64,000 nucleotides of DNA from Gracilaria domingensis (taxonomy: Eukaryota > Rhodophyta > Florideophyceae > Gracilariales > Gracilariaceae), in assembly GCA_022539475.1 (NCBI GenBank), contig VCMS01000054.1:240848-304847 (forward strand). The letters run 5' to 3'. The notes beneath the pieces were generated by a model. The model saw only the letters and a list, made by a program, of their open reading frames with translations, had not been told where the DNA came from and ran no database searches. Below, piece by piece: positions 25,156-64,000 of the stretch; the stretch's first letter is position 1; each line of letters opens with the position of its first letter. Made by a program: the position numbers and the translations under genes.

Positions 25156-26274
25156 GTGGGTGCCTGCACCGAAGGCGCGCCGCTCTTCCGCGACGCGCTG
25201 CGCGCCATCGGCTGCACCGCGCTGTTCGACCTAGCGCTGCGCATTCCGTCGCTGCTGCTGGCCGACCCCGCAGCCGCCCCGCGCTTCTCCTTCAGCGCGC
25301 GCGCGCGCTGGCGCCCTCGCCGCCCATGCGCACTGCCGCCGAGTAGGCGCTCGTCGCGCTGTCGCTTTTCGTGTAGCTGAGCCATCGCGACGAGTCGCCG
25401 TTTCGCGCCGCCGCGCTGGGCGCGCTCATGCCCGCCATGCTCGACGCGCGGGGATTGGGAGGGTAACGGCGATGGAATGACGCGCGAGGAGGCGGAGGCG
25501 GAGGAATGCGAGCGCTTCCGGGAGACCTTGATAAAACTGGCCACGCGCTCGAAGAACCCGGGCGCGGCGGTGTTCGGCTGCGTGACGGACGTGAGCGACG
25601 AGCAGCAGGTGGCCCAGCTGGGGCGCTTTATGCGGCAGCACCTGCCGTCGGTGGACGCGTTCATCTGCAACGACGGCACAGTGGGCAAGCGCGCGGCGCT
25701 GCGCGACGCGCACTTGGACGACCTGCACCGCGTGATGAACACCAACCTGCTAGGGTAGCTGCTGTGCGCGCGGGAGGAGATGCGCATTGCGGACGCGCAG
25801 CAGCGGCGCGTTCGTCTGTTTGTGATGGACGGCAGCGGCACGAGTGGCAACGCGACGGCGACGTACGCGGCGTACGGCGCGACGAAACGTAGAGTGCCGC
25901 AGCTGGTCAAGTCGCTCAACAAGAAGTGCGCGCGCGGCTGGTGCCGCTTCCACTGTCTGTCGCCGGGCATGGTGCTGACGGAGCTGCTGCTGGGCGAGAA
26001 CCGCGAGCCGGCGGCGCGGCGCGTCTTCAAGTTGCTGGCGGAGGAGCCGCGCACGGTGGCCGCGGAGCTGGTGCTGCGCGTGCACGCCGTGCTGCGGCGC
26101 GACGCGCGCAGCACATACATCCGCTTCCTGATGGCACCGCCCGCGGCGTGGCTGCTGGCGACGGGCTTCGCGCTGGGCTGGCGGCGCCACCGCTTCTTCG
26201 ACGAGCGCACGGGCGCGCGCGTGGACGTGCGCGCCGGGCGCTACAGCGTGAGTGGCGTGCGCGGCAGCGAGTAG
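25156..26274 (+). pseudogene. chlorophyll b reductase-like SDR (NYC1/NOL family), disrupted
   Basis: NYC1/NOL are plastid short-chain dehydrogenases that reduce chlorophyll b to 7-hydroxymethyl chlorophyll a. The frame from 25477 reads VDAFICNDGTVGK, NTNLLG, a TAG at 25756-25758, then LLCAREEMRI. LFVMDGSGTSGNATATYAAYGATKRRVPQLVKSL follows, in two runs with the YxxxK catalytic pair (YGATK), and then CLSPGMVLTELLLGENREP. The C-terminal TM-like segment is AAWLLATGFALGWRRHRFFDE. The MDG-G-S-G and SPGMVLTELLL blocks are typical of this family. The N-terminal Rossmann motif TGxxxGxG is not seen, and the region 25156-25476 has stops in every plausible frame. It is very GC-rich, unlike the flanking TEs. 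Confidence 0.65.
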
Positions 26275-26998
26275 CGCGTGGCCGCTGGTAAGTCAATGGG
26301 CGCGGCTGTACTTTGCCAGTCATTCATGGAGCGCCCGCAGCCGCGACGCGCAGTTCATGCCCGTCGGCCTGAGTTCACCGTCACGCGCGCGCCGCCGCCG
26401 CCACCTCTCGAGTGAGCGCCTTCGCGCTCAATTCAACGCGCGGTGGAACCAACGACGTACTCGTGCATGCTCTGTATTCTGCGCGCCGCAACGCGCGCCG
26501 CGCGCCGCGCTTTCCACGCGCGCGCCGTTTGACACCATGTGCGCATGGATGTGCCAAAAACCGCGCCCCGCGCCGACCTGTTTGACGCATCATGCCATCA
26601 TCTCCAGATCCCGCCGCCAGCAACGTGGCGCCCGGCGCAACTGCAACTGCTTCTCGGATCATTTTACTTGTCGCCCCGCGCGCCAGCTTGCCAACAGCCT
26701 ACCACAGCGGCGCTTGCAAGCGTACCGTTGGTACCGCCTCGCGTGCGTTTCACTCGCAATTTCTTACGGTAACACTCTCACCCCGGCGCCCCCCTCCCGC
26801 CCCGTTAGCAAAGCAGGCGCACTGCGCAGCCAGTGCCCACAGCCCGCGCGTGTTCGAAGACAGCACGAGCTGACGCGTGCGCGCAGCGCCGTGAAATTAG
26901 ATCGCCGCCCCCCGCCAGTCCCTTCCCAAACAAAAGCTCCAAGTTAGTTTAAACGCAAAGAAAGGGGCTGAACAAGCCTCTCTACCAGTAAAAACCTC
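26275..26998. other. GC-rich spacer, no gene supported
   Basis: An open frame of about 230 codons exists on + (26252-26947), but its Arg/Pro/Ala composition is what GC-rich non-coding DNA gives. No motif was seen. Confidence 0.5.
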
Positions 26999-28643
26999 TC
27001 ACGCGTGCACCTGAAACAACGTCACATCCTTGTGCGCCGATCGGTTGTGCTTTTGTTGATGTCGCTTGAGGTGCGTCTTGTACCCGAATCTCGCCGAGCA
27101 AAACGTGCAAACGAATGGCTTCAGCTGAGAAGCACCGCCTGAATATGCCGGATCAGGTTGCCTCGCTTCTGGAAACGGTGTCCGCACTTGCGACAAGCGG
27201 GCACGTTGTGCGTGTCGCACGTGATGTACCATCTCACCTCCTTGTCCGTCGTCATTGTCCGTGACGCGTTCCCATCACCGCCCTCGCCCGCCACCCCCGC
27301 CGCCTTCACGCCCGCGCCCACAGCAGCACTAGTCGTTGTCGCCGTCGTGGCCGTTGTCTCATCGTTCCTTTGCAGCGCCTGCGCGCCCTCATTCTCTGTC
27401 GATGCCACAATATCGCTGGCAGTTATCGGAGGCGTCAATGCCTCCAGCAAGGCGCTGCTGACGTCTGTTTCGATGTTGTTCGCGCGAGCGCCCACATCAT
27501 GTATGGATGGCGTAAGCGAATTGCCTGTCACTGTCGTGCTCGGGCTTGGACTGCTGCCATCGTCCGATAGCCTTACCAGCAGCGCATCCGCTTCGAGCTG
27601 TATCAGAAACTGCTGTTCCAACTGGTGGCCCGCCATCGAAGGAACAACGCCGTGTGTGTCCGCGTGGCTGTACGGTGCGTTTGCTGCGTTGCCCGCCGGT
27701 ACAAGATGGTCTTCGTCAAGCGTCGCGTTTTGTGACGGCTTGTCTGCGTATTGTACCCAATGTTGTTGAGCATTGTGTAGTCTGGATTCTGCCGTCAACA
27801 GTTTCTGACAAAGTTGTACGCGTCGTACGTACAGGCTGAGCAGCTGCATCGTTTCCGAGCGGTTGCCACACTCAAACTGGTACGGGATTGGGTTTGGAGG
27901 GCTGTGGAACAGTTTGGTGCCGCGTTTGGTAAGTGGCGGTACATTTCGACGAAAAACGAGCCGCTCTGAGCAAAGGTGAACAGCCGCTTACACAGCGACA
28001 ACCACGCCTCAATGAGACGTTCAGAGCTCGGCGGGCGGTGCAGCCCCAAGTCGGATGACTTGTACAAGAAGGTGTGCTCGGCGTGCGCCGGCGCCCTGTT
28101 CTTGAAGGACGGCGGACAAGCGCACGGCTCAATGCCTCGCTCACCACAAAAGTGGCACAAGGTGGGGCGCTCGCGAAGCACGATGGTGAGCAGCGGCGAC
28201 GTGAGCGGCTGGTGCGGTGGCAGCAGTTCGTAGCAGATGATATCAGTGGAAAGCACCAGGCGATTGTGGTGCGCAGTGGACGGCTTGTGCAGGCGTCTGC
28301 ACGCGATGATGAGACTGTCGTCGTGCATCCATGCAAACTCGACGAGCTCGAGATGGTCGACGCGCAGGTCGGCGGCGAAGTTGCGCTTGCAGGGGCGGCT
28401 GGAAAGGCGGTGGGAATGCAGGACGGAGTCGCGCACGCGGGCGAGCGCGTGGTGCTCCTTCTTGTTGTAGAGGTTTCCGACGGCGATGCCGTCGTAGACG
28501 TGCTGCATGAGTGCCGTCGATGAATGCACGCCACATCGACGGTGCACAGCTCTGCGGCGCGAGACAGCCGCGCGCCGAGTGTGCCGCGCACGGGAACGCG
28601 CGCCGTCGCGCGCGTCAGCGAGGCGCTCCAGCTCGAACAGCAT
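26999..28643 (-). pseudogene. C2H2 zinc-finger protein with two frameshifts
   Basis: Three overlapping frames on - read as one protein of about 540 aa. N-terminal part (28643 to about 27930): MQHVYDGIAVGNLYNKKEHHAL, then PTLCHFCGERGIEPCACP, with paired cysteines. The middle (frame of 27849) has PNPIPYQFECGNRSETMQLL and a long Ser/Thr/Ala-rich stretch, then finger 1 CRKCGHRFQKRGNLIRH. The C-terminal frame (27232-26999) holds KPFVCTFCSARFGYKTHLKRHQQKH, a canonical C2H2 finger with linker-like KPF. Shifts lie near 27910 and 27130. The role would be DNA binding in the nucleus. Introns or base-call errors could explain the shifts, but no splice sites are evident. Confidence 0.55.
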
Positions 28644-28721
28644 GCGCTACGTTTTGGCTGGCGTTGCGTGCGGTGTGTGTTTAGGAGGTCTGTGGACGCT
28701 ACCAGAATGAGGCGAAAACGA

Positions 28722-29014
28722 GCCCGCGGGCGGGGGGGGTCGGTCTTGTTAGGGTAGGTACCCTAACACGACCGGACCCCCCCGCCCGCGGGCATGAAAT
28801 CGCACATTTTTGAAAAAATCGTCCAAAACGTGCCCGCGGGCGGGGGGGTCCGTTCGTGTTAGGGTAGCTACCCTAACACGAACGGACCCCCCCGCCCGCG
28901 GGCATAAAAAAGCACATTTTTTAAAAAACCGGCCAAAACGTGCCCGCGGACGGGGGGGTGCGGTTGTGTTAGGGTAGCCGCCCTAACACAACCGATCCCC
29001 CCCACGCCGGCGGG
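28722..29014. repeat. three tandem GC-rich palindromes with TTAGGG/CCCTAA cores
   Basis: Palindromes at 28722-28793, 28832-28903 and 28942-29014 (72-73 bp each) are spaced exactly 110 bp apart. Each runs GCCCGCGGGCGGGGGGG...TTAGGGTA / TACCCTAA...CCCCCCCGCCCGCGGGC. Spacers are A/T-rich (GCACATTTTT, AAAACGTGCC). The middle one is the most perfect; arms of the third carry some changes. Confidence 0.9.
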
Positions 29015-41793: not shown

Positions 41794-44700
41794 TCAAACT
41801 TCTATGTGGATCACACCACAGGCTTCGCGGAACTTCTCGTGCTTCACTCGCGCAAGTGGCTTATTCAGCATATCGGCAACCATGGAATCCGTCGGGCAGT
41901 AGAACAGCACAATCGACTTGGCCTGCAGAGCTTCTCGAGTGAAGTGGAACCGAATGTCAATGTGCTTGGTTCGCCTGTTCACCACTCCATTACGAGCAAG
42001 GTCAATGCTGCCCTGGTTATCAACATACATGGGAGTTGGTTCAACCAGCAGCTTCACAGACCCATCTGCATCGATTCCAATTTCACCGCCAATGCCGTTC
42101 CAAAGTCGCCTAAGCCAGATTGCCTCCTTGGTGCCAGAGCACAAGCTCACGTACTCAGTCTCCGCACTGGACAGACCCACTACCTCCTGTTGACGAGAAG
42201 ACCACGACAAAGCAACACCGCAAATCATGAACAAGTATCCGCTGGTGGACTTGCGGTTGGCAACATCACCCCCCCAGTCGGAGTCCACATACCCGTGCAG
42301 TTGCAAATCAGTGTTGGAGCCATACGTCAACCCGAACGTGGTAGTGCCATTGAGGTAGCGAAGAACACGCTTGACCGCCTTCCAGTGAGTGTTGCCCGGG
42401 TTCTCAACATACTTGGCCAGCTTAGCCACAGCGTATGAGATGTCTGGACGAGTTCCCACAGACAGATACATGAGGCAGCCAATCGCCTGACAATACGGTA
42501 CATGCGTGAGCACTTCCTCGTCAGCAGACAAGTCCACACCGCACTACATAGGAGTGTCAACGGGTTTCGACAGCTGCATGCCAAATCGCTCCACGACCTT
42601 GTTGGTGTACGCTGACTGAGTCAAGTACAGCTCTCGCTTGGTTCTGTCTCGATGGATTTCAAATCCAAGAACCATGCGAGCTTCTTTGAGGTCCTTCATG
42701 CGGAAACGACTTGACAGCTCTGCCTTCACACGCTCCATGGTTTTCATGTTCTCACTTGCAATCAGCAGGTCATCTACGTACAGAGCAATGATAACCAAGA
42801 AACCCAGTATGATCCCGGTGTAGACACACTCGTCTGCGTCATTCGGCTTGAGGTGCATTTCACCAACAAGGAAGGCGTATATCTTGGCGTGCCACTGTCT
42901 TGGTGCTTGTCTAAGCCCATAGATCGCTTTCTTCAGTCGGCACACCAAGTCCTCCTTTCCCTGCTGTGTGGATCCCATTGGCTGCTCCATGTACACTGTC
43001 TCATCAAGATCACCGTTCAGAAAGGCAGTCTTCACATCCATCTGGTGCAAGTGAAAGTCTCGTACGGCAGTCACTGACAGGATCATTCTGATGGATGTGA
43101 ACTTCACCACAGGTGCATATGTCTCTGAGAAGTCCACACCCTCGATCTGCAGGCAGCCTCTTGCAACCACACGAGCCTTGTAACGCACTGTCGGTTCACC
43201 AGATGACGATGCCTCATACTTCTGTACATACACCCACTTGGACGAAATCACGTTGCTGTCTGCTGGCCTTGGCACTAGATCCCATGGGTCATGCTCCATC
43301 AATGACTCGTACTCACTCTTCATCGCCTTCTTCCAAGCATCGGAATCAGGACGTGACACTGCGTCACCGTACGACGAAGGAGTATCATCACTGGCTGTAA
43401 GGAAAGCACTGGCACCACGCCACCACGAGGATGGCGTCTTTCTCTGACGTGTGGATCTACGAAGGGGCTGCATCTCTGTCACTTCCGGCTCATCGTGTGA
43501 GACTGGTGTAGTGTGTTCATCCGTACTGGCATTCGTGGTACTCTCATGGGAAGCTGGTGCAGAAGGGTCATCTTCAGAATGATCGGCGGATGTGTCAGAG
43601 GTTGAGGCTTCAGCAGATCCCGACTTGTCGACCAAGTCGATTTCCGCGTAGTCCTCGTGTTCAGAGTGCTCGTCACTTTCAGTTCCAGAGCACTCGTCAA
43701 ATCTCACATCTCGTGACACAATCACCTTCTTCTTCTGGCTGTCCCACAACTTGTATCCGTGGGAGCCTGAAGTGTACCCAATGAAGATGGCTTCCACTGC
43801 ACGCTCTTCCAGCTTCTACAACTTGTGATCAACCACCTTGTACCAGCAACGGCTACCAAACACACGCAGATTGCTCAGATCAGGCTTCTGTCCATGCCAC
43901 AGCTCAAACGGAGTCACGTCACTCGGAAGCGCCTTGCAGGTCACTCTGTTGCGCACATACACAGAAACATTCAGAGCCTCAGCCCAAAAGCTTTTTGGCA
44001 CATTCTTGTGATGCAATATTGACCTGACCAAGTCCATGAGTGTGCGGTTGAACCTCTCGGCAAGCCCGTTCTGCTGTGGATTATAAGGTACAGTTCGCTG
44101 ATGCTCAATACCGTGCTGCTCAAGCTTTTCGGAGAACCGATTGGACATGTACTCACCACCATTGTCAGTGCGTAATGTACGCAACACACTCTTGCGTGCC
44201 CTGATGGTTAACACTTTCCTTCCCATCTGTTTCTCCACAAACCTGAGCCACTTGATGAACATCCGGAACACCTCATCCTTCGTCTTGAGCATGTACAAGA
44301 AGCAGTAGCGGCTGTGGTCATCGATGAATGTGACAAAGTAGTGCGAGCCTCCCAAGGACTTCACGTTCACTGGACCCGATATATCAGAGTGTACCAGTCC
44401 AGTCACTGTTAGTGGCCTTGTCGGCACCATTCGCAATGAGGCATACAAAGTCAGAATCGCTGCCGCCCGTACCTTGCTCATCGTTGAGCGCGGTATGTAC
44501 ACTTGGGTGAGCAGCATCGATCTGATCCTTGTTAGCCCCATCACGTTGCTTTTTGAAACAGTTCTTCTGGATATGACCCTTTATGCCACAATAGTAACAC
44601 ACAACCGACTTCAATGACTTCCTACGAAACTGGCGTCCCAAGAGTGCAGCATCAACACCGGACTCCTCCTTGGCACGATCACTCATACGTTGCTCTTCTT

Positions 44701-45244
44701 GCAACAAACGGCTCTTCACAAACTCCATAGTGAGTTGGCGATCTCCGATCGTGGTGTCAATTGCAACAATGAGGTGCTCAAAACGATCCGGAAGTCCACA
44801 TAGAGCAGCCATAGCAATGTCCTCTTCTTCAACGTTGACGTCCATACTCTTGAGGTCGGAGGCCAAGTGCCGAACACGATTGATGAATTGCAACATCTTC
44901 TCGTCCTCGCGCATTTTGACAGAGTAGAAAGCACGTCTGGCGTTGATTCGGTTAAGAAGAGTCTTACGTTGAAACACATTGCAAATGGCCTTCCATGCGT
45001 CAGCAGCAGTCTCGATGTCTCGAATGTGATCCAAGTGCTCGTCGGCAAGCGTGAGTCCAATGATAGCTCTAGCCCTTTCGTCGCGGATTTGCCACTTTAC
45101 CAGTTCCTCTTCATCCGTGGGTGCAGAAGTGGTGAGATGGTTCTTGAGGTCTTTCAGTGCAAGTACATACTGAATCTTCTGCTTCCAAGTATGGAAGTTA
45201 TCCTCACCCAACTTCTCGATCTTGAGCCCACTAAACGAGTCCAT
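41794..45244 (-). pseudogene. F1 polyprotein copy d, protease deleted
   Basis: Gag starts MDSFSGLKIEKLGEDN at ATG 45244. It keeps the zinc knuckle CYYCGIKGHIQKNC and then joins integrase (LVHSDISGPVNV) directly near 44396. Relative to the complete copy, 584 bp are missing, removing the protease DSGA motif and the pre-integrase HHCC; 584 is not a multiple of three, so gag and pol are in different frames. There is also a TAG at about 43816 (Lys in sisters) and a TAG near 42545 (Glu in sisters). RT YVDD and RNase H VDSDW are present. Confidence 0.85.
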
Positions 45245-46490
45245 GATGTAAGAGAGGAACTGCAGCGAACCAGATAATGCGGTGGCAGACAGGCGGCAAG
45301 AGCAAACGACAGCGGTAAACAACAACAGCAAACAACAACAACAAACAACAACAAACAACAATAACAACAAACAACAACAACAATAAAGATGAATAGTCGG
45401 GTGCAAAAGGAACTAAGATTCCTGGTACCCTAGGGAGTCGGACCCCTGACCCCCGGAGACTGTCCGGGTAAGAAACGACTTCTGCAGTCTACCTCCTCCT
45501 GCGTTCTAGGAGAAGGTGCGTCGCTCTCTACGAGACTTCCAGAGGAGGGTTAATGACCGAAGATATGCCTTCACCAAGTAAAACCCTCTCTGGTCTCTTG
45601 CAAGAACTTGCGCGACCCTGAAACTGCAGGTACTATGACAAACCGAGGTACGCTTCTAGCAAGCAAACAATGAAGTTCACAAGCAGCCTGATCCTAAAAA
45701 GGAGGCCAGCCTACCACACGTCGCCTCCCCGCACCACCGAAGCAGTACGGATCAAAAGCTCGTTTCAGTTTGCCTTCGCCACAGATCAAGAACCCAACAC
45801 AAAGTCAGGTCAGCAACAATAAAGGTGGACCACCTCCTGTCCAGTGCAGTACGTCACGGCACCCCGTCCACAAATGCCCCCGCGAAGAATACCAGGTCTT
45901 TCGACCGACACCGTTATCTGCCCCTAAGGACCGGTGGGAAACTCGCAAGACGGAACAAATGCTTTGGTTCAAGCCGCCAGACTAACGTCCCCGATTGCTC
46001 GGATCAACCGCTCGTCGCACCGAAACTCAAGTGATCACCACACCTGCCGAGCACACACGCAGTGCACGGACTTCAACAGAAACGAATGCTGAGCACAACA
46101 CACAAGTGCACAGACTTCAACAACACAAGGTCCTCAACCTCTCGGATCAGAACCCACAAAGACGACGTGGGGATCCCAACAATAATAACAGAGGGAAACC
46201 AAACGAAGCGGATAGCGATCGACAACACGGGCAACAACGAGCGCCCAAACACAATCACGATAGAAAGTCAACGTCGAACCACCACCAACAAAACGCCCTC
46301 AGGGAGGAACGAACGACCGAAAGAAGAAAGTCAACACCGACCAACGATACGGTCAACACACCCGACGCAACGGAGAAGGAAACGAAAGGGAAAACAGCGA
46401 AGCGGATGAACGGCGGTGAGGGAGAGCGGCGAGAATCAGCGGCGAGAGGGAACGATAACGGCAGAGGTCAGCGGGGCTGGGCCCATAACC
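45245..46490 (-). promoter_or_regulatory. F1 copy d leader and primer-binding site
   Basis: The primer site is at 46476-46490 (GGTTATGGGCCCAGC on -). The leader includes the shared block at about 45400-45600 with hairpin AGGGG-loop-TCCCT (one G.U pair) and a CAA-rich tract at 45310-45385. Confidence 0.75.
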
Positions 46491-47266
46491 TGATAGAGGT
46501 TAAAGGTGAAAGGGAAGGTTGAAGAAAGGATAGGGGAATGAAGGGAAGTTCGCCAGCTCTGGCTCGGAGTTTACTTGGAGGCACTCGAGTCACCGCTTAT
46601 ATAGAACTACTTTGCGCAATCATCGCACAACTCCAACTCCAAGCGATACCTAAACCACTAGCTAGAGACACTCAATACTACCAATCATCTTCTAACATGA
46701 CATGGTAACACTCCCACACTATCATGGCAGCTTACAACAACAAAACACAACAGTGCACAACAGTGCACAACAACTTACGTGCCTACACATAACCATGACC
46801 ATGCACAGATTCACATAGTGCCAACACACTGTAATCCGTACACGACACCATAACAGTTACGTACAAGCTCACCAACTAACACGTCACCACAAACTCACTC
46901 CAAGTTTTACGTCACCAACAATACCACAGTGTAAACCTCTTGACAGCGCATCTACTCTTCACCATAGTGCCCAAGATACACCAAGCTGTCCTACATGTCC
47001 ACGTACATACGTGTGTACCCTGTGCATCATGTACAGTATGCCCAGTGTATTAGCTACACACGTGTACCCTGGAAACAACCCATTAGCGCCACAACACTTG
47101 TACGAACCACAATGCATATGACCATTTGCAGTAGCCAATCAGAAGCCCGTTTCACGTTGAGTTTGCGCAGAGGCGCATATGCGCTTTTCCAACGGCACCC
47201 TCCAAAACAGCCCATGCTCCCCAGCACTTTTGGTTTTCAGTGACAGCACAAGGTCAACATCCAACA
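46491..47266 (-). repeat. F1 LTR shared by tandem copies d and e
   Basis: 776 bp. On its right is the polypurine tract of copy e and on its left the primer site of copy d. One LTR therefore serves two internal regions. Confidence 0.85.
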
Positions 47267-47286: not shown

Positions 47287-50200
47287 TCAAACTTCTATGT
47301 GGATCACACCACCGGCTTCGCGGAACCTCTCGTGCTTCACTCGCGCAAGTGGCTTATTCAGCATGTCGGCAACCATGGAATCCGTCGGGCAGTAGAACAG
47401 TACAATCGACTTGGCCTGCAGAGCTTCTCGAGTGAAGTGGAACCGAATCTCAATGTGTTTGGTTCTCCTGTTTACCACTCCATTTCGAGCAAGGTCAATG
47501 CTGCCCTGGTTGTCAACATACATGGGAGTTGGTTCAACCAGCAGCTTCACAGACCCGTCTGCTTCCATGCCAATCACACTGCCAATGCCGTTCCAAAGTC
47601 GCCTAAGCCAGATTGCCTCCTTGGTGCCAGAGCACAAGCTCACGTACTCAGCCTCTGCACTCGACAGAGCAACTACCTCCTGTTGACGAGACGACCACGA
47701 CACAGCACCACCGCACATCATGAACAAGTATCCACTAGTGGACTTGCGGTTGGCAACATCGCCAGCCCAGTCAGAGCCCACATAGCCGTGCAATTGCAAA
47801 TCGGTGCTGGAGCCATACGTCAACCCGAACGTGGTAGTGCCATTGAGGTAGCGAAGAACACGCTTGACCGCCTTCCAGTGAGTGTTTCCCGGCTTCTCAA
47901 CATACTTGGCCAGCTTAGCCACAGCATATGAGATGTCTGGACGAGTTCCCACAGACAGATACATGAGGCAGCCAATCGCCTGACAATACGGTACATGCGT
48001 GAGCACTTCCTCCTCAACAGACAAGTCCACACCGCACTCCATAGGAGTGTCAACGGGTTTCGACAGCTGCATGCCAAATCGCTCCAGGACCTTGTTCGTG
48101 TACGCTGACTGAGTCAAGTACAGCTCTCGCTTGGTTCTGTCTCGATGGATTTCAAATCCAAGAACCATGCGAGCTTCTTTGAGGTCCTTCATGCGGAAAC
48201 GACTTGACAGCTCTGCCTTCACACGTTCCACGGTTTTCATGCTCGGACTCGCAATCAGCAAGTCGTCAACATACAGAGCAATGATAACCAAGAAACCCAG
48301 TATGATCCCGGTGTAGACACACTCGTCTGCGTCATTCGGCTTGAGGTGCATTTCACCAACAAGGAAGGCGTATATCTTGGCGTGCCACTGTCTTGGTGCT
48401 TGTCTAAGCCCATAGATTGCTTTCTTCAATCGGCACACCAAGTCCTCCTTTCCCTGCTGTGTGAACCACATTGGCTGCTCCATGTACACTGTCTCGTCAA
48501 GGTCACCGTTCAGAAAGGCAGTCTTCACGTCCATCTGGTGCAAGTGAAAGTCTCGTACGGCAGTCACAGACAAGATCATTCTGATGGATGTGAACTTCAC
48601 CACAGGTACATATGTCTCTGAGAAGTCCACACATTCGATCTGCAGGAAGCCTCTTGCAACCAGACGAGCCTTGTAACGCACTGTCGGTTCACCAGATGAC
48701 GAAGCCTCATACTTCTGTACATACACCCACTTGGACGAAATCACGTTGCTATCTGCTGGCCTTGGCACTAGATCCCACGTGTCGTGCTCCATCAACGATT
48801 GATACTCACTCTTCATCGCCTTCTTCCAAGCTTCGGAATCAGGACGTGACACTGCGTCACCGTACGACGAAGGAGTATCATCACTGGCTGTAAGGAAAGC
48901 ACTGGCACCACGCCACCATGAGGATGTCGTCTTTCTCTGACGTGTGGATCTACGAAGAAGATGCGTCTCTGTCACTCCCGGCTCATAATGTGTGTCTGGT
49001 GTGGTGTTCTCATCCGTACTGGCATTCGTGGTTCTCTCGTGAGAAGCTGGCGCAGAAGGGTCATCTTCAGAATCATCGGTGGATGTGTCAGAGGTTGAGG
49101 CTTCAGCAGCTCCCGACTTGTCGACCAAGTCGATATCCGCGTAGTCCTCGTGTTCAGAGTGCTCGTCACTTTCAGTTCCAGAGCACTCGTCAAACCTCAC
49201 ATCTCGTGACACAAACACCTTCTTCTTCTGGCTGTCCCACAACTTGTATCCGTGGGAGCCTGAAGTGTACCCAATGAAGATGGCTTCCACTGCACGCTCT
49301 TCCAGCTTCTTCAACTTGTGATCAACCACCTTGTACCAGCAACGGCTACCAAACACACGCAGATTGCTCAGATCAGGCTTCTGTCCATGCCACAGCTCAA
49401 ACGGAGTCACGTCACTCGGAAGCGCTTTGCAGGTCACTCTGTTGCGCACATACACAGAAAAATTCAAAGCCTCAGCCCAAAAGCTTTTTGGCACATTCTT
49501 GTGATGCAACCTTGACCTGACCAAGTCCATGAGTGTGCGGTTGAACCTCTCGGCAAGCCCGTTCTGCTGTGGATTATAAGGCATAGTTCGCTGATGCTCA
49601 ATACCGTACTGCTCAAGCTTTTCGGAGAACCGATTGGACAAGTACTCACCACCATTGTCAGTGCGTAATGTACGCAACACACTCTTGCGAGCGGTGATGG
49701 TTAACACTTTCCTTCCCATCTGGTTCTCCACAAACCTGAGCCACTTGATGAACATCCGGAACACCTCATCCTTCGTCTTGAGCATGTACAAGAAGCAGTA
49801 GCGGCTGTGGTCATCGATGAATGTGACAAAGTAGTGCGAGCCTCCCAAGGACTTCACGTTCACTGGACCCGATATATCAGAGTGTACCAGTCCAGTCACT
49901 GTTAGTGGCCTTGTCGGCACCATTCGCAATGAGGCATACAAAGTCAGAATCGCTGCCGCCCGTACCTTGCTCATCGTTGAGCGCGGTATGTACACTTGGG
50001 TGAGCAGCATCGATCTGATCCTTGTTAGCCCCATCACGTTGCTTTTTGAAACAGTTCTTCTGGATATGACCCTTTATGCCACAATAGTAACACACAACCG
50101 ACTTCAATGACTTCCTACGAAACTGGCGTCCCAAGAGTGCAGCATCAACACCGGACTCCTCCTTGGCACGATCACTCATACGTTGCTCTTCTTGCAACAA

Positions 50201-50376: not shown

Positions 50377-50902
50377 TGTCAGAGTAACATCCTCAGACTT
50401 AGGCTCTCACTGTCTGTTGTTGATATCTTTTTGAACCGGAAGCTGTTGCCTTCGTTGCCATACGAAGGATGAGTAAGAAGTTCAGAGCATGTGACAAAAA
50501 AGGAGGGTGTTTCCAGAACATCCGAATCGTATAGAACAGAACTATGGTCTTGGTATACTGGTAGAACGGTACACCCGTGGACTTGGTCACACAATAACTG
50601 CACTTGATGTTTGGTTGTCACCGTTGGCCATCATAAGGTTTAAGTGCAGTGACGCTGGTTTCCTGACTGCCCGACTTGTTACTTAGCATGTACTTGGCCA
50701 GGAGCGCTGGTTGCTTGAAGTCAGTAACAGAGGGAGGGTGTTGGAAGTCATGCTGTCACTGACATCAAGCAGCTGAGATGTGTGGAGTCTAGAATGGTAT
50801 CTTGGTATGTGAAAGCGAGATTGATGTTGTTCTGTTTGGTATACTATGTTGCTGTGTGGTATACTCAGTATGGGTTGAACGTTTACGGCTACATTGGAAT
50901 GC
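50377..50902 (+). repeat. F3 LTR fragment
   Basis: It starts TGTCAGAGTAACATCC and matches F3 LTR 59398 onward for about 525 bp, then runs into an F1 LTR. It includes the internal AGAGGGAGGGTGTTGGAAG block. Confidence 0.8.
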
Positions 50903-51674
50903 TGGATGTTGACCCTGTGCTGTCACTGAAAACCAAAAGTGCTGGGGAGCATGGGCTGTTTTGGAGGGTGCCGTTGGAAAAGCGCATATGCGCCTCTGCG
51001 CAAACTCAACGTGAAACGGGCTTCTGATTGGCTACTGCAAATGGTCATATGCATTGTGGTTCGTACAAGTGTTGTGGCGCTAATGGGTTGTGTCCGGGGT
51101 ACACGTGTGTAGCTAATACACTGGGCATACTGTACATGATGCACAGAGTACACACGTATGTACGTGGACATGTAGGACAGCTTAGTGTAACTTGGGCACT
51201 ATGGTGAAGAGTTGATGCGGTGTCAAGAGGATTACAGTGTGGTGTTGTTAGTGACGTAGGACTTGAAGTGAGTTTGTGGTGAGTTGTTGTTGGTGAGCCT
51301 GTACGTGACTGTTATGGTGTCGTGTAGGGATTACAGTGTGTTGGCACTATGTGAATCTGTGCATGGTCATGGTTATGTGTAGGCACGTAAGTTGTTGTGC
51401 ACTGTTGTGCACTGTTGTGCTTTGTTGTTGTAAGCTGCCATGATAGTGTGGGAGTGTTACCATGTCATGTTAGAAGATGATTGGTAGTATTGAGTGTCTC
51501 TAGCTAGTGGTTTAGGTATTGCTTGGAGTTTGAGTTGTGCGATGGTTGCGCAAAGTAGTTCTATATAAGCGGTGACTCGAGCACCTCCAAGTAAATTCCA
51601 AGCCAGAGCTGGCGAACTTCCCTTCATTCCCCCTATCCTTTCTCTCATCCTTCCCTTTCCAGCTATAACCTCCA
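50903..51674 (+). repeat. F1 LTR, + orientation
   Basis: Nearly full length, missing the first bases (begins TGGATGTTGACC). It is inverted relative to the LTRs of copies d, e and f, and its end CCTCCA meets an F2 LTR. Confidence 0.8.
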
Positions 51675-51677
51675 ACA

Positions 51678-52383
51678 GCCTGTCAGTCCCTCAAGGGTGC
51701 TCCAAGTACTTGGAACACAAAGTTGCAGGGGAGCATGGGCACTTTTGGGCACCCTCGCGCGAAAAGCGCATATGCGCCTCTCCACAAACCCAACGTAATA
51801 CTGCAATATTATTGGCTACTGCAAATGCGTATATGCAACGTAGTGTGGACAAGTGGACCTGGCTGTATGGGGCAGGAGTGGGGAATGGCACAAGTGGTGC
51901 GCCGTGATTGGCTGAAGTCTGCTACTGCTGGCCAGTTATGCAGTAGCTGAGAATGAGCGAATACAGGCTGTTTTGAGCGAGTTTTGCAATATGTGCGATT
52001 CTAGGCTACTGCGAAGGGTTTTGGAGCGAATGTGCGATTCTGAGCTGCGCGAGCGGGTTTGATGCGCCGGATTGAAAATGTTGATTTTTTGGGGCTACTA
52101 ATGGATCATGGAGTTGGCATTGGATTTAGCGCGGTTTGATTTAGTTGTTTTGAATTCGTATTATGATTTTCGCGCGCTTTCGTCGTCAAGCTGTACACTT
52201 TGACAGCGTGTGCTGTTATGTCGCATGCAGCGACGGCGGCGGTGCGCGGTTAGTACTAGTAGGTTGCGATCGTCCCCGTTCACTAAACTCGGCCGAAGGT
52301 GGCCTACCCCCTTTTGTTTGTCTTACCCATCTTGTTCACATCTTTTTCCTTTTCACTTCTCTAACCTGCGTTCGTTGCATTAA
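51678..52383 (+). repeat. F2 LTR, + orientation, lacking first ~25 bp
   Basis: It begins GCCTGTCAGTCCC and matches 37125-37823 closely to the primer site. Confidence 0.85.
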
Positions 52384-53068: not shown

Positions 53069-53607
53069 ATGTCGGACTCGGAAAACGAAACTGAAACCAA
53101 CCCTGGTGTGAAGATCCCCCGCTTTCATGGTAAGCGTGGTGAAGATTACGCACTCTGGCGACATCGTCTTCGTGCTGCATGTCGTATCAAAGGTGTCTGG
53201 AATGTTGTTAACACGGATGCCGCGCAGTCCATGTCAACCGATACCACTGGTAGTGATGGTCAAGGATCCTCTGTGGACCCCATTCGCACATTGGCTAAGC
53301 GTGAAAAGGCCTGTGGCATCATCATTTGTGCACTTGGCGATGCTCCCTTGCGTGTCGTTATGGATGTGGATGATGATCTGGCACGAATGCTCAAGGTGCT
53401 CGATGCACGTTATGCATCTAATCGAACGGTTTCCCGCATCGCGGTTCAGACTCAACTGTTCCGAATGTCGTACAAGGGGCAGAACATGTCTGAGTATGTC
53501 GATCAATTCACTGCACTGTTCTCACAGTTGGATCGCATGGGCAAGGATGCTGCCATTCCAGAAACTCATAAGGCTCCTATGCTTTTGGCTTCTATTGATC
53601 CGCAAGG
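53069..53607 (+). pseudogene. F2 Gag, truncated by F1 insertion
   Basis: About 180 codons from ATG 53069 (MSDSENETETNPGVKIPRF). The Gag fold signature is clear: ALWRHRLRAAC, later ARMLKVLDARYASNR, LFRMSYKGQNMSEYVDQFTALFSQL and APMLLASID. These match the UBN2 family of copia Gag, which packages element RNA. The frame is cut at 53607 where an F1 LTR (TGATGGAGG) begins; the zinc knuckle and pol are not adjacent. Confidence 0.8.
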
Positions 53608-54385
53608 TGATGGAGGTTATAGCTGGAAAGGGAAGGTTGGGAGAAAGGATGGGGGGAATGAAGGGAAGTTCGCCAGCTCTAGCTCGGAATTTACTTGGAG
53701 GTGCTCGAGTCACCGCTTATATAGGACTACTTCGCGCAACCATCGCACAAGTCCAACTCCAAGCAATACCTAAACCACTAGCTAGAGACACTCAATACTA
53801 CCAATCATCTCCTAACATAAAATCGTAACACTCCCACACTATCATGGCAGCTTACAACAACAAAGCACAACAGTGCACAACAGTGCACAACAACTTACGT
53901 GCCTACACATAACCATGACCATGCACAGATTCACATAGTGCCAACACACTGTAATCCCTACACGACACCATAACAGTTACGTACAAGCTCACCAACAGAA
54001 CTTCACCACAAACTCACTCCAAGTCCTACGTCACCAACAACACCACACTGTAATCCTCTTGACACCGCATCAACTCCTCACCATAGTGCCCAAGATACAC
54101 TAAGCTGTCCTACATGTCCACGTACATACGTGTGTACTCTGTGCATCATGTACAGTATGCCCAGTGTATTAGCTACACACGTGTACCCTGGAAACAACCC
54201 ATTAGCGCCACAACACTTGTACGAACCACAATGCATATGACCATTTGCAGTAGCCAATCAGAAGCCCGTTTCACGTTGAGTTTGCGCAGAGGCGCATATG
54301 CGCTTTTCCAACGGCACCCTCCAAAACAGCCCATGCTCCCCAGCACTTTTGGTTTTCAGTGACAGCACAGGGTCAACATCCAACA
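53608..54385 (-). repeat. F1 LTR of copy f
   Basis: 778 bp with complete ends, inserted in F2 gag; followed on the right by the polypurine tract and RNase H of copy f. Confidence 0.85.
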
Positions 54386-57493: not shown

Positions 57494-57939
57494 TGGCAGA
57501 GTAACATCCTCAGACTTAGGCTCTCACTGTCTGTTGTTGATATCTGTTTGAACCGGAAGCTGTTGCCTTCGTTGCCATACGAAGGATGAGTAAGAAGTTC
57601 AGAGCATGTGACAAAAAAGGAGGGTGTTTCCAGAACATCCGAATCGTATAGAACAGAACTATGGTCTTGGTATACTGGTAGAACGGTACACCCGTGGACT
57701 TGGTCACACAATAACTGCACTTGATGTTTGGTTGTCACCGTTGGCCATCATAAGGTTTAAGTGCAGTGACGCTGGTTTCCTGACTGCCCGACTTGTTACT
57801 TAGCATGTACTTGGCCAGGAGCGCTGGTTGCTTGAAGTCAGTAACAGAGGGAGGGTGTTGGAAGTCATGCTGTCACTGACATCAAGCAGCTGAGATGTGT
57901 GGAGTCTAGAATGGTATCTTGGTATGTGAAAGCGAGATT
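57494..57939 (+). repeat. F3 LTR fragment
   Basis: It begins TGGCAGAGTAACATCC and matches the first ~445 bp of the F3 LTR; it ends where a complete F1 LTR start appears. Confidence 0.8.
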
Positions 57940-58715
57940 TGTTGGATGTTGACCCTGCGCTGTCACTGAAAACCAAAAGTGCTGGGGAGCATGGGCTGTT
58001 TTGGAGGGTGCCGTTGGAAAAGCGCATATGCGCCTCTGCGCAAACTCAACGTGAAACGGGCTTCTGATTGGCTACTGCAAATGGTCATATGCATTGTGGT
58101 TCGTACAAGTGTTGTGGCGCTAATGGGTTGTTTCCAGGGTACACGTGTGTAGCTAATACACTGGGCATACTGTACATGATGCACAGGGTACACACGTATG
58201 TACGTGGACATGTAGGACAGCTTGGTGTATCTTGGGCACTATGGTGAAGAGTAGATGCGCTGTCAAGAGGTTTACACTGTGGTATTGTTGGTGACGTAGG
58301 ACTTGGAGTGAGTTTGTGGTGACGTGTTAGTTGGTGAGCTTGTACGTAACTGTTATGGTGTCGTGTACGGATTACAGTGTGTTGGCACTATGTGAATCTG
58401 TGCATGGTCATGGTTATGTGTAGGCACGTAAGTTGTTCTGCACTGTTGTGCACTGTTGTGTTTTGTTGTTGTAAGCTGCCATGATAGTGTGGGAGTGTTA
58501 CCATGTCATGTTAGAAGATGATTGGTAGTATTGAGTGTCTCTAGCTAGTGGTTTAGGGATTGCTTGGAGTTGGAGTTGTGCGATGGTGTCGCAAAGTAGT
58601 TCTATATAAGCGGTGACTCGAGCGCCTCCAAGTAAATTCCGAGCCAGAGCTGGCGAACTTCCCTTCATTCCCCTATCCTTTCTTCAACCTTCCCTTTCAG
58701 CTTCAACCTCTATCA
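57940..58715 (+). repeat. F1 5' LTR, + orientation
   Basis: 776 bp, TGTTGGATGTTGACC to CTCTATCA, TATA box at about 58601-58608. Confidence 0.85.
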
Positions 58716-59397
58716 GGTTATGGGCCCAGCCCCGCTGACCTCTGCCGTTATCGTTCCCTCTCGCCGCTGATTCTCGCCGCTCTCCCTCACCGCCGTTCAT
58801 CCGCTTCGCTGTTTTCCCTTTCGTTCCCTTCTCCGTTGCGTCGGGTGTGTTGACCGTATCGTTGGTCGGTGTTGACTTTCTTCTTTCGGTCGTTCGTTCC
58901 TCCCTGAGGGCGTTTTGTTGGTGGTGGTTCGACGTTGACTTTCTATCGTGATTGTGTTTGGGCGCTCGTTGTTGCCCGTGTTGTCGATCGCTATCCGCTT
59001 CGTTTGGTCTCCCTCTGTTATTATTGTTGGGATCCCCACGTCGTCTTTGTGGGTTCTGATCCGAGAGGTTGAGGACCTTGTGTTGTTGAAGTCTGTGCAC
59101 TTGTGTGTTGTGCTCAGCATTCGTTTCTGTTGAAGTCCGTGCACTGCGTGTGTGCTCGGCAGGTGTGGTGATCACTTGAGTTTCGGTGCGACGAGCGGTT
59201 GATCCGAGCAATCGGGGACGTTAGTCTGGCGGCTTGAACCAAAGCATTTGTTCCGTCTTGCGAGTTTCCCACCGGTCCTTAGGGGCAGATAACGGTGTCG
59301 GTCGAAAGACCTGGTATTCTTCGCGGGGGCATTTGTGGACGGGGTGCCGTGACGTACTGCACTGGACAGGAGGTGGTCCACCTTTATTGTTGCTGAC
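58716..59397 (+). promoter_or_regulatory. F1 primer-binding site and partial leader, + orientation
   Basis: GGTTATGGGCCCAGC at 58716-58730. The leader matches copy d's leader in reverse and is interrupted at TTGCTGAC (59397) by the F3 element. Confidence 0.8.
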
Positions 59398-60751
59398 TGT
59401 CAGAGTAACATCCTCAGACTTAGGCTCTCACTGTCTGTTGTTGATATCTGTTTGAACCGGAAGCTGTTGTCTTCGTTGCCATACGAAGGATGAGTAAGAA
59501 GTTCAGAGTTTGTGACAAAAGGAGGGTGTTTCCAGAACATCCGAATCGTACAGAACAGAACTATGATCTTGGTATACTGGTAGAATGGTACAGCTGTGGA
59601 CTTGGACACACACTAACTGCACTTGATGTTTGATTGTCACCGTTGCACGTCGTAAGGTCTAAGTGCAGTAACGTTGGTTTCCTCATTACCCGACCTGTTA
59701 CTTAGCATGTACTTGGGCAGCAGCGATAGTTGCTTGAAGTCAGTAACAGAGGGAGGGTGTTGGAAGTCATGCTGTCACTGGCATCAAGCAGTTGAGATGT
59801 GTGGAGTCTAGAATGGTACCTTGATACGTGAAACCGAGATTGATGTTGTTCTGTTTGGTATACTACGTTGCTGTGTGGTATACTCAGTATGGGTTGAACG
59901 TTTACGGCTACACTGGAACGCTATCGTTCAGCTGGGATGACCACAAGGTACAACGATGACAGGTTGTACAGTGGTCATGAAGTACGGGGTTGAAGGCTAT
60001 GTATGTGCACATAAGGTACAGGTGGCAGCACTGTCAGTGTTGTGAAGTTTACACCATGTTTGAGTTGTGCTACATGCAAATGTGTGTGTATGGATGAATG
60101 GAACATGTTGCAGCTAAGTGACTGACGTCATGTGGTTTACAGGTACTTGTTGATGATGTGGGACTTGGGTATCTGGCACGTACACATTACGGTGTGGTGT
60201 ACAGATTACAGCGTGCCAGCAACACGTGAAGTGTGATGTGATGTTCCGTAAGCATGGCTGGTCATGATGGTGAGGTGTTGCATTGTGTGTATGCATGGTC
60301 GTGTTACTATGGTGGGCTGTCATATTGTTGACTGCGTTGATGTGTGGTGCTCGTGGTGTGCTGTAGAAATGTGTCGGTACACTGTCAGGGACGTGCATGG
60401 CTACTACATTGGTGTGCATTGTTGTGCATTGTTGTGCACTGCTGTGCAGTAGTGTACGGAATTGTTGTGCACTGTTGTACACTGTTGTGCGTTGTTGTGC
60501 ACTGCTGTTGTAAGCAGTTTGGCACTGTTACCATGTTATGTCTGTAGATGATTGGTAGTATTGAGTGTCTCTGGTTAGTGAGTTGCATGTTGGTCAGAGT
60601 TGGAGTCGCATGATGGAGTAGCGAAGAAGTGCTATATAGGTTGTGACTCAAGCACCTCCAAGTAAATATGAGCCAGAGCTGGCGAACTTCCCTTGCATCC
60701 CCCCATCCTTCCTCATGTCAACTTTCTGATCCCAGCTATAACCTCTAACAG
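59398..60751 (+). repeat. F3 5' LTR (1354 bp)
   Basis: It starts TGTCAGAGTAACATCC and ends ACCTCTAACA. An internal AGAGGGAGGGTGTTGG at about 59749 looks like an F1-type polypurine tract plus LTR start, so the LTR may be a fusion. It has TATA box TATATAGG at about 60633, TGTTGTGCAC-type decamers at 60415-60510, and a 3' part (R-U5) like that of F1. Confidence 0.8.
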
Positions 60752-61870
60752 GTTATGGGCCCAGCCCCGCTGACCTCTGCCGTTTGTCGTTCGTCATGAG
60801 GTTTCCCTTTCCGCCGCTCTCCCTCACCGCCGTCCGTGTTGTTGAACGCCGTTGTTGATGTTTTCGATGTTTTTTCTCCGTCGTGTTTCTTGTCATTGAC
60901 CGGTTTGGTGGTGTTGTATTTCCCTTTTGGTTTGCGTTCCTCCCTGAGGGCGTTCTGGTGGTAGTGGCTCGACGCTGTTCTACTTTCGTGATTCTGTTTG
61001 GTTTCTAGTTCATTTTCGTTTTCGTCGATCGCTATCCGCTTTGTTGGTTTCTCGCCTCTGTTTTCGTTGTTGTGATCCCCGTGTCGTGTTTGCCGGTTCT
61101 GATCCGAGGGGTTGAGTACCGTTGCCGTTGAAGTCTGTGCACTTGTGTGTTGTGCTCAGCATTCGTTTTTTCGTTGAAGTCCGGGCACTGCCTGTGTGCT
61201 CGGCATTTGTGATGATCACTTGGGTTTCGGTGCGACGAGCGGTTGATCCGAGCAATCGGGGACGTTAGTCTGGCGGCTTGAACCAATTCGGACGCGCTGT
61301 CGAGCGGGCTCCCACCGGTCCTTCGGGGCAGATAACGGTGTCGGTCGGAAGACCTGGTAGTACCGCGAGTGCTGAAGTTGACGGGGTGCCGTGACGTACT
61401 GCATCGAACAGGAGTGGTTCACCTTTGTTGTGTGTGACCTGACTGTGTGTTGGGTTCTTGATCTGTTGGGAAGACAAACTGAAACGAGCTTTTGATCCGT
61501 ACTGCTGCGGTGCTGCGGGGAGGCGACGTGTCGTAGGCTGACCTCCTTTTCAGGATCAGGCCGCTTGTGAACTTGATTGTTTGCTTGCTGGAAGCGTACC
61601 TCGGTTTGTCATAGTACCTGCAGTATCAGGGTCGCGCAAGTTCTTGCAAGAGACCAGAGAGGGTTTAACTTGGTGAAGGCATATCTTTGGTCACTAACCA
61701 TCCTCTGGACGTCTCGTAGAGAGCGACGCGCTTTCTCCTGGAACGCAGGAGGAGGTAGACAGAAGAAAGTCGTTTCCTACCCGGAGGGTCTCCGGGGGTC
61801 AGGGGTCCGACTCCCTAGGGTACCAGGAATCTTAGTTCCTTATGCACCCGATCGCTTGCAGTTTGTTGTT
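60752..61870 (+). promoter_or_regulatory. F3 primer-binding site and F1-like structured leader
   Basis: GGTTATGGGCCCAGC at 60752-60766. The leader aligns with the F1 leader over its length. The shared block lies at about 61625-61860 with GCATATCTTTGG, GACGTCTCGTAG and hairpin AGGGG-TCCGAC-TCCCT (61801-61816). Confidence 0.75.
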
Positions 61871-61887
61871 GTTATTCTCGCTACAGT

Positions 61888-62987
61888 TCAGGAGGTGGAG
61901 TGTTTCCTGCCTGAGACTGTGTGTGTGAGATTCGTTTATGACACTTCCTGGGTGTTTATTGTTGAACATGTCTGAGCTCTTCTTTGTATCAACTTTGGAA
62001 AGTTGAGATGTTACTTGTCCGTTGTTATCGTGACTTCCTTACGCAGGCTCAGAAGGTTGTCGTTATGTATGCCCGGGATGTGTGCTGTGCTCTTCGCTTT
62101 ACTTCTGTTGTACCGGAAGGTTGCTATTTGTCTGCATGTCCGGTGTGTATGGAAGAGCTGTTTGACTCAGGAGGTTGAGTGTTTCATGCCTGAGTGTATT
62201 ATTGATCACTTGTGATGTGTGTTTTGCTCTCCATGTTGTTCTCATGTTACCAGTAGGTTGTTACATGTATGCATGTCCTGGGTATGGAAGAGCTGTTTGA
62301 CTCAGGAGGTTGAGTGTTTCATGCCTGAGTGTATTATTGATCACTTGTGATGTGTGTTATGCTCTCCATGTTGTCCTCATGTTACCAGAAGGTTGTTACA
62401 TGTATGCATGTCCTGGTTATGGAAGAGCTGTTCGATTCAGGAGGTTGAGTGTTTCATGCCTGAGTGTTTGTTTCATTGCTTGTGATGTTTGTTTTGCTCT
62501 TTGTTTCAGTTTGTTGTCACTGGAAGTTTGCTATGTGTTTGCATGTCCGGTGTGAATGAAAGAGCTAATTGACTCAGGAAGTTGAGTGTTTCATGCCTGA
62601 GTGTGTAGGACATCATTTTGTATGGACGGGGCCTGGAAGGTTGTCATTTTGCATGTCCAGGATGCCTGTGTCGCAATTCTCTTTGTGTGTTATTCGCGGA
62701 AGGTTGCTGTGATTTTGAATGTCCGCTGTTTGAAGAGATTTGTTGAGCTGGAAGGTTGCTCTCTTTTGCATGTCCAGCTGTTACGAAGGTGATGTTGAAC
62801 TGGAAGGTTGCTACTTGTTGCATGTCCGGTGTTCAGAAAATCGGTCTTGAATCAGAAGGTTGCGTGTGTTTGCATGTCTGGTTGAAGTACTGTGATTAAT
62901 GGTGCTCCGAGAGGTTGTTATGTGTTACATGCTCGGAGCAACATTCGTTTTCGGTGTCTAGAATGTGGTCACTTGTGGACATCTAGA
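61888..62987 (+). ncRNA. array of ~16 covarying hairpins in the F3 body
   Basis: Each unit is: outer stem (4-9 bp), AGGT, inner stem (usually TGN with NCA), loop of 5-10 nt, TG, outer stem. Clear units: 61888-61914, 62112-62144, 62166-62194, 62250-62282, 62301-62329, 62384-62417, 62437-62463, 62518-62552, 62573-62601, 62632-62661, 62696-62726, 62746-62779, 62799-62830, 62851-62882, 62903-62940, and a variant at 62957-62987. Outer stems include ACCGGA/TCCGGT, CTCAGG/CCTGAG, CCTGGA/TCCAGG, GCGGA/TCCGC, AGCTGGA/TCCAGCT and TGCTCCGAG/CTCGGAGCA. Inner stems TGC/GCA, TGA/TCA, TGT/ACA and GGA/TCC also change together. T.G pairs occur on + and would be A.C on -, so the + RNA is the structured strand. 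Part of the array (62166-62601) has a 135-bp period with two alternating hairpin types. The function is unknown. Confidence 0.8.
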
Positions 62988-63058
62988 TCCCTTTTGTGAA
63001 GGACTCTGAGGTGCATTTTCGTTCCGAGAGAAGTTCAAAGCCAGTGAGAGAGGGAGGG

Positions 63059-64000
63059 TGTCAGAGTAACATCCTCAGACTTAGGCTCTCACTGTCTGTT
63101 GTTGATATCTGTTTGAACCGGAAGCTGTTGTCTTCGTTGCCATACGAAGGATGAGTAAGAAGTTCAGAGTTTGTGACAAAAGGAGGGTGTTTCCAGAACA
63201 TCCGAATCGTACAGAACAGAACTATGATCTTGGTATACTGGTAGAATGGTACAGCTGTGGACTTGGACACACACTAACTGCACTTGATGTTTGATTGTCA
63301 CCGTTGCACGTCGTAAGGTCTAAGTGCAGTAACGTTGGTTTCCTCATTACCCGACCTGTTACTTAGCATGTACTTGGGCAGCAGCGATAGTTGCTTGAAG
63401 TCAGTAACAGAGGGAGGGTGTTGGAAGTCATGCTGTCACTGGCATCAAGCAGTTGAGATGTGTGGAGTCTAGAATGGTACCTTGATACGTGAAACCGAGA
63501 TTGATGTTGTTCTGTTTGGTATACTACGTTGCTGTGTGGTATACTCAGTATGGGTTGAACGTTTACGGCTACACTGGAACGCTATCGTTCAGCTGGGATG
63601 ACCACAAGGTACAACGATGACAGGTTGTACAGTGGTCATGAAGTACGGGGTTGAAGGCTATGTATGTGCACATAAGGTACAGGTGGCAGCACTGTCAGTG
63701 TTGTGAAGTTTACACCATGTTTGAGTTGTGCTACATGCAAATGTGTGTGTATGGATGAATGGAACATGTTGCAGCTAAGTGACTGACGTCATGTGGTTTA
63801 CAGGTACTTGTTGATGATGTGGGACTTGGGTATCTGGCACGTACACATTACGGTGTGGTGTACAGATTACAGCGTGCCAGCAACACGTGAAGTGTGATGT
63901 GATGTTCCGTAAGCATGGCTGGTCATGATGGTGAGGTGTTGCATTGTGTGTATGCATGGTCGTGTTACTATGGTGGGCTGTCATATTGTTGACTGCGTTG
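63059..64000 (+). repeat. F3 3' LTR, truncated by window end
   Basis: A polypurine tract (AGAGAGGGAGGG, 63047-63058) precedes TGTCAGAG. The 942 bp present align with 59398-60339 at a constant offset of 3661 with no indel, and I found no substitution by eye, so the insertion is very recent. Confidence 0.85.

Follow-up and report, generated by a model that had tools for sequence, protein, structure and literature searches.

A tandem array of covarying hairpins in a non-coding Copia retrotransposon of the red alga Gracilaria domingensis

The window, a stretch of 64,000 nucleotides from a Gracilaria domingensis contig, contains copies of a coding Copia family, F1, and of a non-coding family, F3. 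One F1 copy encodes a Gag with a zinc knuckle (44384..45406, minus strand; PF14223 and PF00098), and another encodes the integrase and reverse transcriptase (47287..50037, minus strand; PF00665, then PF07727). In the latter frame the rve domain lies at 50-156 and RVT_2 at 419-667, which places the integrase ahead of the reverse transcriptase. By this gene order and the copia-type Gag, which are found in separate copies, F1 belongs to Ty1/copia and is a candidate helper family. The homology search with Gag found 56 relatives. Two F1 copies carry in their leader an antisense open frame of 175 aa with a TTG start, at 58684-59211 on the minus strand and at 45995-46522 on the plus strand. The window also holds an open frame that contains the Plavaka-type transposase domain of a DNA transposon (1289-3607, minus strand), a second, different copia-type Gag (53069-53773, plus strand; PF14223, E 5.4e-10) and, at 25000-29000, an island of 57-67% G+C amid 43-55% G+C, which is perhaps host sequence.

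The F3 copy studied here lies on the plus strand. Its 5' LTR of 993 bp (59758..60750) has TG...CA ends, and most full copies have the same LTR boundaries. It is followed by a primer binding site (60751..60764), whose identical letters follow the F1 LTR at 58716 and which we take to resemble the half-tRNA-iMet site of copia. The long untranslated leader of 1.1 kb (60751..61882) is about 82% like the leader of coding F1, and this likeness together with the identical primer site ties F3 to F1. By BLAST within the window, 60462-61876 matched 46773-45373, where the LTR of a coding Copia copy ends and its leader follows, at 82.1%. The folding of the leader is not unusual (z +0.6). The F1 homology ends a few bases upstream of the first hairpin, and there the array starts. 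Downstream of the array the sequence shows an upstream polypurine tract (63047..63058) followed by TGTCAGAG, a 3' tail (63059..63418) that is absent before the two F1 3' LTRs read, and the polypurine tract preceding the 3' LTR (63409..63418). The 3' LTR itself (63419..64000), recognised by its sequence match, is truncated by the end of the window and of the contig.

Counted from 59758 to 63418 plus one LTR of 993 bp, F3 is about 4.65 kb in size. Its 2.67-kb interior (60751-63418) has no ATG open reading frame of more than 58 codons on the plus strand. A hidden gene was therefore rejected, and the body of F3 lacks a protein frame, as the original prediction had stated. The 5-bp flanks, compared by eye, match in 6 of the 10 F3 copies with both ends readable (L011, L016, L018, L021, L024 and L027, but not L012, L014, L015 and L028). 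With TG...CA LTRs, 5-bp duplications and a primer site and leader as in F1, F3 is almost certainly a non-autonomous LTR retrotransposon of the Copia type with the size of a LARD.

At its left end the window copy carries an extra 360 bp (59398..59757), a second 3' tail identical to 63059-63418. Between 59398-60339 and 63059-64000 the match was 100%, with 942 of 942 comparable bases identical. These identical ends suggest that the copy is a recent insertion, as judged from the sequence. F3 has two polypurine tracts with a TG after each. The copy L011 (1951-6798), flanked on both sides by TTATC, begins at the base of the upstream tract, and its left end is 360 bp longer than its right LTR; the window copy and L011 start at the same base. 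The extended left end looks like the product of plus-strand priming from the upstream polypurine tract. In L010 and L014, F3 is present in LTR-body-LTR-body-LTR tandems, as from recombination between LTRs.

F1 LTRs were found inside F3 LTRs (57494-59397 and 50377-51678), and at 59397 an F1 leader contains F3. BLAST had hinted at half-and-half LTRs at 57854-58715 and 50737-51678, and recombinant F1/F3 LTRs would have shown co-packaging. This candidate was rejected, since the F1 LTR begins with its own TG end within the F3 LTR. Both places are therefore read as nested insertions, at 57854-58715 from the junction letters and at 50737-51678 from the match ends only, and F1 and F3 appear to have inserted into each other.

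The array on the plus strand comprises 15 units, a degenerate unit and a variant hairpin within 61886-62987, which agrees with the predicted number of about 16 like hairpins. Each unit has a core of AGGU opposite UG, a short inner stem and outer arms that are unlike between units. Twelve units were detected both by a strict scan and by a covariance model. These are unit 1 (61886..61916), the unit of type ACCGGA (62111..62145), the unit of type ACTCAGG (62165..62195), two 135-bp duplicates (62300..62330 and 62435..62465), the units with the core AGTT (62518..62552) and AAGT (62572..62602), a unit at 62631..62662, three units of a 52-bp series (62746..62779, 62798..62831 and 62850..62883) and a unit with a 9-bp outer stem (62903..62940). 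The covariance model detected three more, one with a bulged C and mismatches (62248..62283), one with a bulged C (62383..62418) and one with an inner stem that is broken in the window and intact elsewhere among the copies (62694..62728). The degenerate unit (62047..62078) was matched by the model with an E value of 0.032. The variant hairpin with TCTAGA arms and an altered core (62957..62987) was found by eye and missed by the model.

A 135-bp tandem repeat of 3.6 copies with two hairpins each (62111..62604) accounts for 8 of the 15 units. As these 8 belong to two types, there are about nine truly different stems. The length of the array differs between F3 copies. In two respects the original prediction did not hold: the unit starts are 52-83 nt apart with one gap of 161 nt, not about 30-70 nt, and the stems do not always pair, since the units at 62047, 62248, 62383 and 62694 are imperfect. 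The core is largely kept, as had been claimed, with AGGT in 13 of the 15 units and TG in all 15, whereas AGTT and AAGT occur once each.

The strict scan required AGGT with at most one mismatch, a 3-bp inner stem, TG and an outer stem of at least 4 bp. In 61401-63062 it detected 12 hairpins on the plus and none on the minus strand, compared with a mean of 0.5 and a maximum of 5 in 200 dinucleotide shuffles of this region. In the whole window there were 13 on the plus and 2 on the minus strand. The covariance model built from the 15 units gave 15 matches with E<=1e-7, which are its own training units, besides the one at 0.032; all were in the array. With the filters off, the next best match in the 64 kb window had an E value of 1.2, and none of the coding Copia copies in the window contained a hairpin that the model recognised.

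Since the units had been chosen partly by their pairing, the test was repeated from the AGGTTG motif alone. At least 5 contiguous outer pairs were present at 10 of the 13 motifs in the array but at none of the 24 elsewhere on the plus strand, 8 of which are without any TG at the right distance. When the full inner stem was required too, 9 of the 13 passed. The three exceptions are 62255 (bulged C, mismatches), 62390 (bulged C) and 62054 (degenerate). Among other start points in the array 4 of 1049 passed, and 3 of these 4 are units with a changed core.

The strict core pattern was found 260 times in the genome and once in the reversed control. For the loose pattern AGGTTGN{5,12}CATG there were 1751 matches against 1389 in the control, an excess of 362; 36 F3 arrays alone hold 311 such matches and 166 of the stricter kind. 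The excess is no more than F3 can supply and therefore does not point to a second, abundant family that shares the core, whereas a rare or distant family would be missed by this pattern. In viral contigs, the similar pattern gave single matches, one per stretch and no array, among the matches listed. A known RNA family was also rejected for the array, as no Rfam family reached its gathering score in the window. At E values up to 1, the region 59398-63500 gave only a sub-threshold match to a miRNA family at 60431-60493 in the LTR. This match lies where a CATTGTTGTG-like unit recurs in short tandem repeats within the F3 LTR (60407-60508).

The covariation was analysed between the units. Among nine distinct units 85 of 90 cells were paired; the outer arms were only 44-48% alike, and the 6-nt core was identical in 9 of 9. 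When the arms were swapped between units, outer pairing was 66%. In the alignment of 15 rows (14 distinct), 91.4% of the cells were paired compared to 71.5% in column shuffles (reached in 0 of 500), two-sided changes were observed at 9 of the 10 pairs, and the inner stems varied as predicted. Because related rows can mimic covariation, the inferred changes were placed randomly on a tree of the units. This tree-based null was calculated with our own script, not with R-scape, and on trees built from the same short rows. In the 14 distinct units of the window, 93.6% of the cells were paired against 73.8% under the null (reached in 0 of 2000), two-sided cells numbered 37 against 7.0 (0 of 2000) and extra pair types 18 against 10.1 (1 of 2000). 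Similarly, 100 distinct units of all copies were paired to 89.7% against 66.7% (0 of 500), with 1 of 500 for the pair types. For these sets, rows of units were removed if they had over 3 gaps (421 of 540 kept), and the units of all copies were reduced to 100 distinct ungapped rows and those of the window to 14 distinct rows. The hairpins at 62047 and 62957 are outside all covariation counts, and including 62047 would reduce the paired share.

A pair-by-pair test in the manner of R-scape gave E<0.05 for 1 of 10 pairs in the window set and for 0 of 10 with the 100 units. In the latter set the structural pairs took ranks 1-5 and 7 of 325, with the last at rank 163. As single pairs mostly fail and the whole passes, the evidence lies in the entire structure with its about nine different stems. 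The claim that the outer stems differ and yet pair is thus supported by covariation beyond the tree-based null, with the reservation that four units are imperfect and 8 of the 15 are tandem duplicates.

We then compared 36 arrays, the window array and those of 35 genomic copies, some of them partial. The other 35 shared 89.4-99.9% identity with the window copy over the aligned columns. Left out were L001-L008, which lie within longer loci, L009, which is the window copy and was kept as 'ref', and L017_2063, which is not F3. Over all branches the stems changed at 0.44 per site (133 at 300) and the spacers at 0.51 (343 at 678; p 0.11). On terminal branches the stem rate equalled the spacer rate (92 at 300 compared to 210 at 678, p 0.50), and the pair was kept in 27 of 80 changes, where 35% is expected by chance. 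On internal branches the stems were slower than the spacers (41 at 300 compared to 133 at 678, p 0.023), and the pair was kept in 17 of 36 changes (p 0.10). The core was not slower than the spacers, neither over all branches (46 at 90 sites compared to 343 at 678) nor on internal branches (14 at 90 compared to 133 at 678, p 0.25). In the 15 units of the 36 arrays no two-sided change kept its pair, and three two-sided changes broke it. The degenerate unit at 62047 shows by eye one compensated change, with C-G in most copies and U-A in L029, L032 and L034.

Stems that mutate without compensation had been named beforehand as an outcome that would speak against the prediction, and among the recent copies this is what the 15 units do. 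The predicted selection in each copy is accordingly not supported; selection on the structure is visible in the older history, between the units and weakly on internal branches. Copies that are dead on arrival should drift whatever the function of the array, so the recent drift neither refutes nor proves a function. The pattern matches dead, drifting copies and a slowly evolving source lineage; taken by themselves, the recent data would be no proof of selection.

The G.U pairs had been taken to fit the sense transcript. The 15 window units contain 10 G.U and no A.C cells, which fits a sense RNA, but the count is biased because G.U was allowed in unit recognition; the degenerate unit holds two A.C by eye. 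Recent changes did not favour G.U over A.C more than expected (31 to 23, with 49.5 to 35.3 expected). The folding energy of the whole array had a z of -2.9 on the plus and -6.5 on the minus strand (60 shuffles each). As it is stronger on the minus strand, the sense strand cannot be told from the energy alone.

Taken together, these results make past selection on the RNA structure very probable. We have fair confidence that this selection kept the units folded and the internal loop, AGGU opposite UG and flanked by the U-A and G-C pairs of the inner stem, nearly unchanged. RNA sites for proteins usually show such a near-fixed core within arms that keep only their pairing, and protein binding in general is the somewhat favoured role of the hairpins. 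For the mechanism we infer a multivalent protein-binding array, with Gag packaging ranked first and host export or stability second. The best explanation as a whole, to which we give a probability of about 0.4, is that F3 is a LARD-size Copia parasite that has a hairpin array in place of gag-pol for capture by the Gag nucleocapsid. F3 carries about 15-17 copies of the hairpin where gag-pol would be, and the array has probably grown by tandem duplication in steps of 52 and 135 bp. After duplication the arms would have drifted in compensated pairs. The nucleocapsid of Gag supplied by the helper F1 would recognise the hairpin core, and many sites per RNA may capture Gag such that F3 RNA gains a packaging edge over the helper RNA.

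Gag packaging is the first choice because the Gag of the coding relative F1 has a zinc knuckle, because clustered unpaired guanosines have been proposed as NC sites in HIV-1 (excerpt of PMC4576207), and because dispersed hairpins of the same motif serve the assembly of RNA viruses (excerpt of PMC6281560). That the array serves Gag packaging in particular is a tentative proposal by analogy, and the Gag link, built on the zinc knuckle and the HIV-1 parallel, is held with low confidence. The coding F1 copies of the window are without the hairpin, which is therefore hardly a packaging signal common to F1 and F3; the array is then a feature of the parasite, and if Gag recognises the hairpin, F1 RNA would be packaged through something else. 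In its most specific form, in which F3 swapped the helper genes for about 16 tandem Gag-binding hairpins and became an RNA decoy that outcompetes the helper RNA by multivalent binding kept by selection, the proposal is doubtful.

The hairpins might also bind an export adaptor or a stabilising host protein, by which the long non-coding RNA could reach the cytoplasm or be protected from decay, in the manner of the constitutive transport elements (CTEs) of simple retroviruses, which are more effective in several copies than singly. F3 RNA is without long open reading frames, whereas the hairpin-free F1 would presumably leave the nucleus as mRNA, and multiple CTEs enhanced targeting to the microtubule-organising centre while a single CTE gave low export (excerpt of PMC4829213). 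Against this, the array has no match in Rfam. We rank a host-factor array closely behind Gag packaging and consider it unlikely. The selection may also have ended. In that case the array would date from selection in an earlier, active lineage and would no longer be required for the spread of today's family. This would account for deep covariation next to neutral terminal branches and for the poor pairing of the window units at 62047, 62248, 62383 and 62694. The window copy with its identical ends looks very recent and still holds 12 strict hairpins, so that a lost ancestral function is improbable.

Pairing can be kept without any function by quasi-palindrome correction, in which one arm is copied from the other. 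A hairpin repeat that expanded as mere filler by slippage and template switching, with its pairing kept by such copying, would fit the tandem repeats of 52 and 135 bp, the variable array length, the missing compensation at the 15 units in recent copies and the lack of core conservation there. However, copying between arms would have paired the internal loop too, whereas AGGT/TG stays unpaired and is identical in the nine distinct units; G.U pairs persist, and stem changes on internal branches are fewer than spacer changes. The nearly fixed but unpaired core argues against this origin, which is quite unlikely. Selection on DNA, with the units serving in double- or single-stranded form as sites for protein binding or recombination, would agree with the folding of both strands and the stronger energy on the minus strand. 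A double-strand site needs no pairing arms of changing sequence, and the excess of G.U over A.C in the window units, biased as it is by unit finding, also speaks against it; we regard this as very improbable. The preferred reading remains the protein-binding array with Gag as the first candidate.

In our judgement, it is still an open question by what means gene-free RNAs secure their share of retrotransposon particles. F3 offers a compact, countable motif with about nine arm sequences and a near-fixed core that suits binding and packaging assays, and one copy of the family is sufficiently young for testing. Should Gag bind the motif, the array would parallel in nature both the hairpin tags with which RNA is labelled and the dispersed packaging signals of viruses.

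Among the known systems, the LARDs, which were first described in barley and its relatives, are likewise LTR elements of more than 4 kb without protein and with a conserved non-coding body. Grass LARDs are Gypsy-like, whereas F3 is Copia and repeats a single discrete hairpin with a near-fixed core in tandem. At about 4.65 kb and with a longest plus-strand ATG frame of 58 aa, F3 is above the lower size limit of 4 kb for LARDs (excerpt of PMC4558846). The conserved RNA structure of LARDs has its equivalent between the array units, but not between recent copies and not in the leader. TRIMs and retrozymes are likewise non-coding LTR elements mobilised by a helper. TRIMs are smaller than 4 kb and typically of 0.5-1 kb (same excerpt), a range that F3 exceeds. 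The defined RNA motif of retrozymes is a hammerhead ribozyme within the LTR (excerpts of PMC4918200 and PMC9695139), whereas the window contains no Rfam family at gathering score. Cassandra is also a non-coding LTR element with a conserved predicted RNA fold, and tandem arrays occur, but its LTR includes a part of 5S rRNA type, and the fold is of LTR with LTR (excerpt of PMC7215508).

Retroviral psi and CTE elements occur singly or few, compared to about sixteen hairpins in F3; the comparison is one of description. The HIV-1 psi shares with the array the clustered unpaired guanosines, there proposed as favoured NC sites (PMC4576207, in part), and CTEs recruit NXF1 (PMC4829213, in part). The packaging signals of RNA viruses such as MS2 are also many stem-loops with a common motif in variable surroundings (PMC6281560, in part). 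These are dispersed and have a known binder, whereas the F3 array is clustered and non-coding and its binding sites are putative. Among the open-access papers listed by the literature searches, no title or abstract opening dealt with a hairpin array in an LTR element. In conclusion, F3 varies on the known non-coding LTR elements by repeating one discrete, covarying hairpin in tandem.
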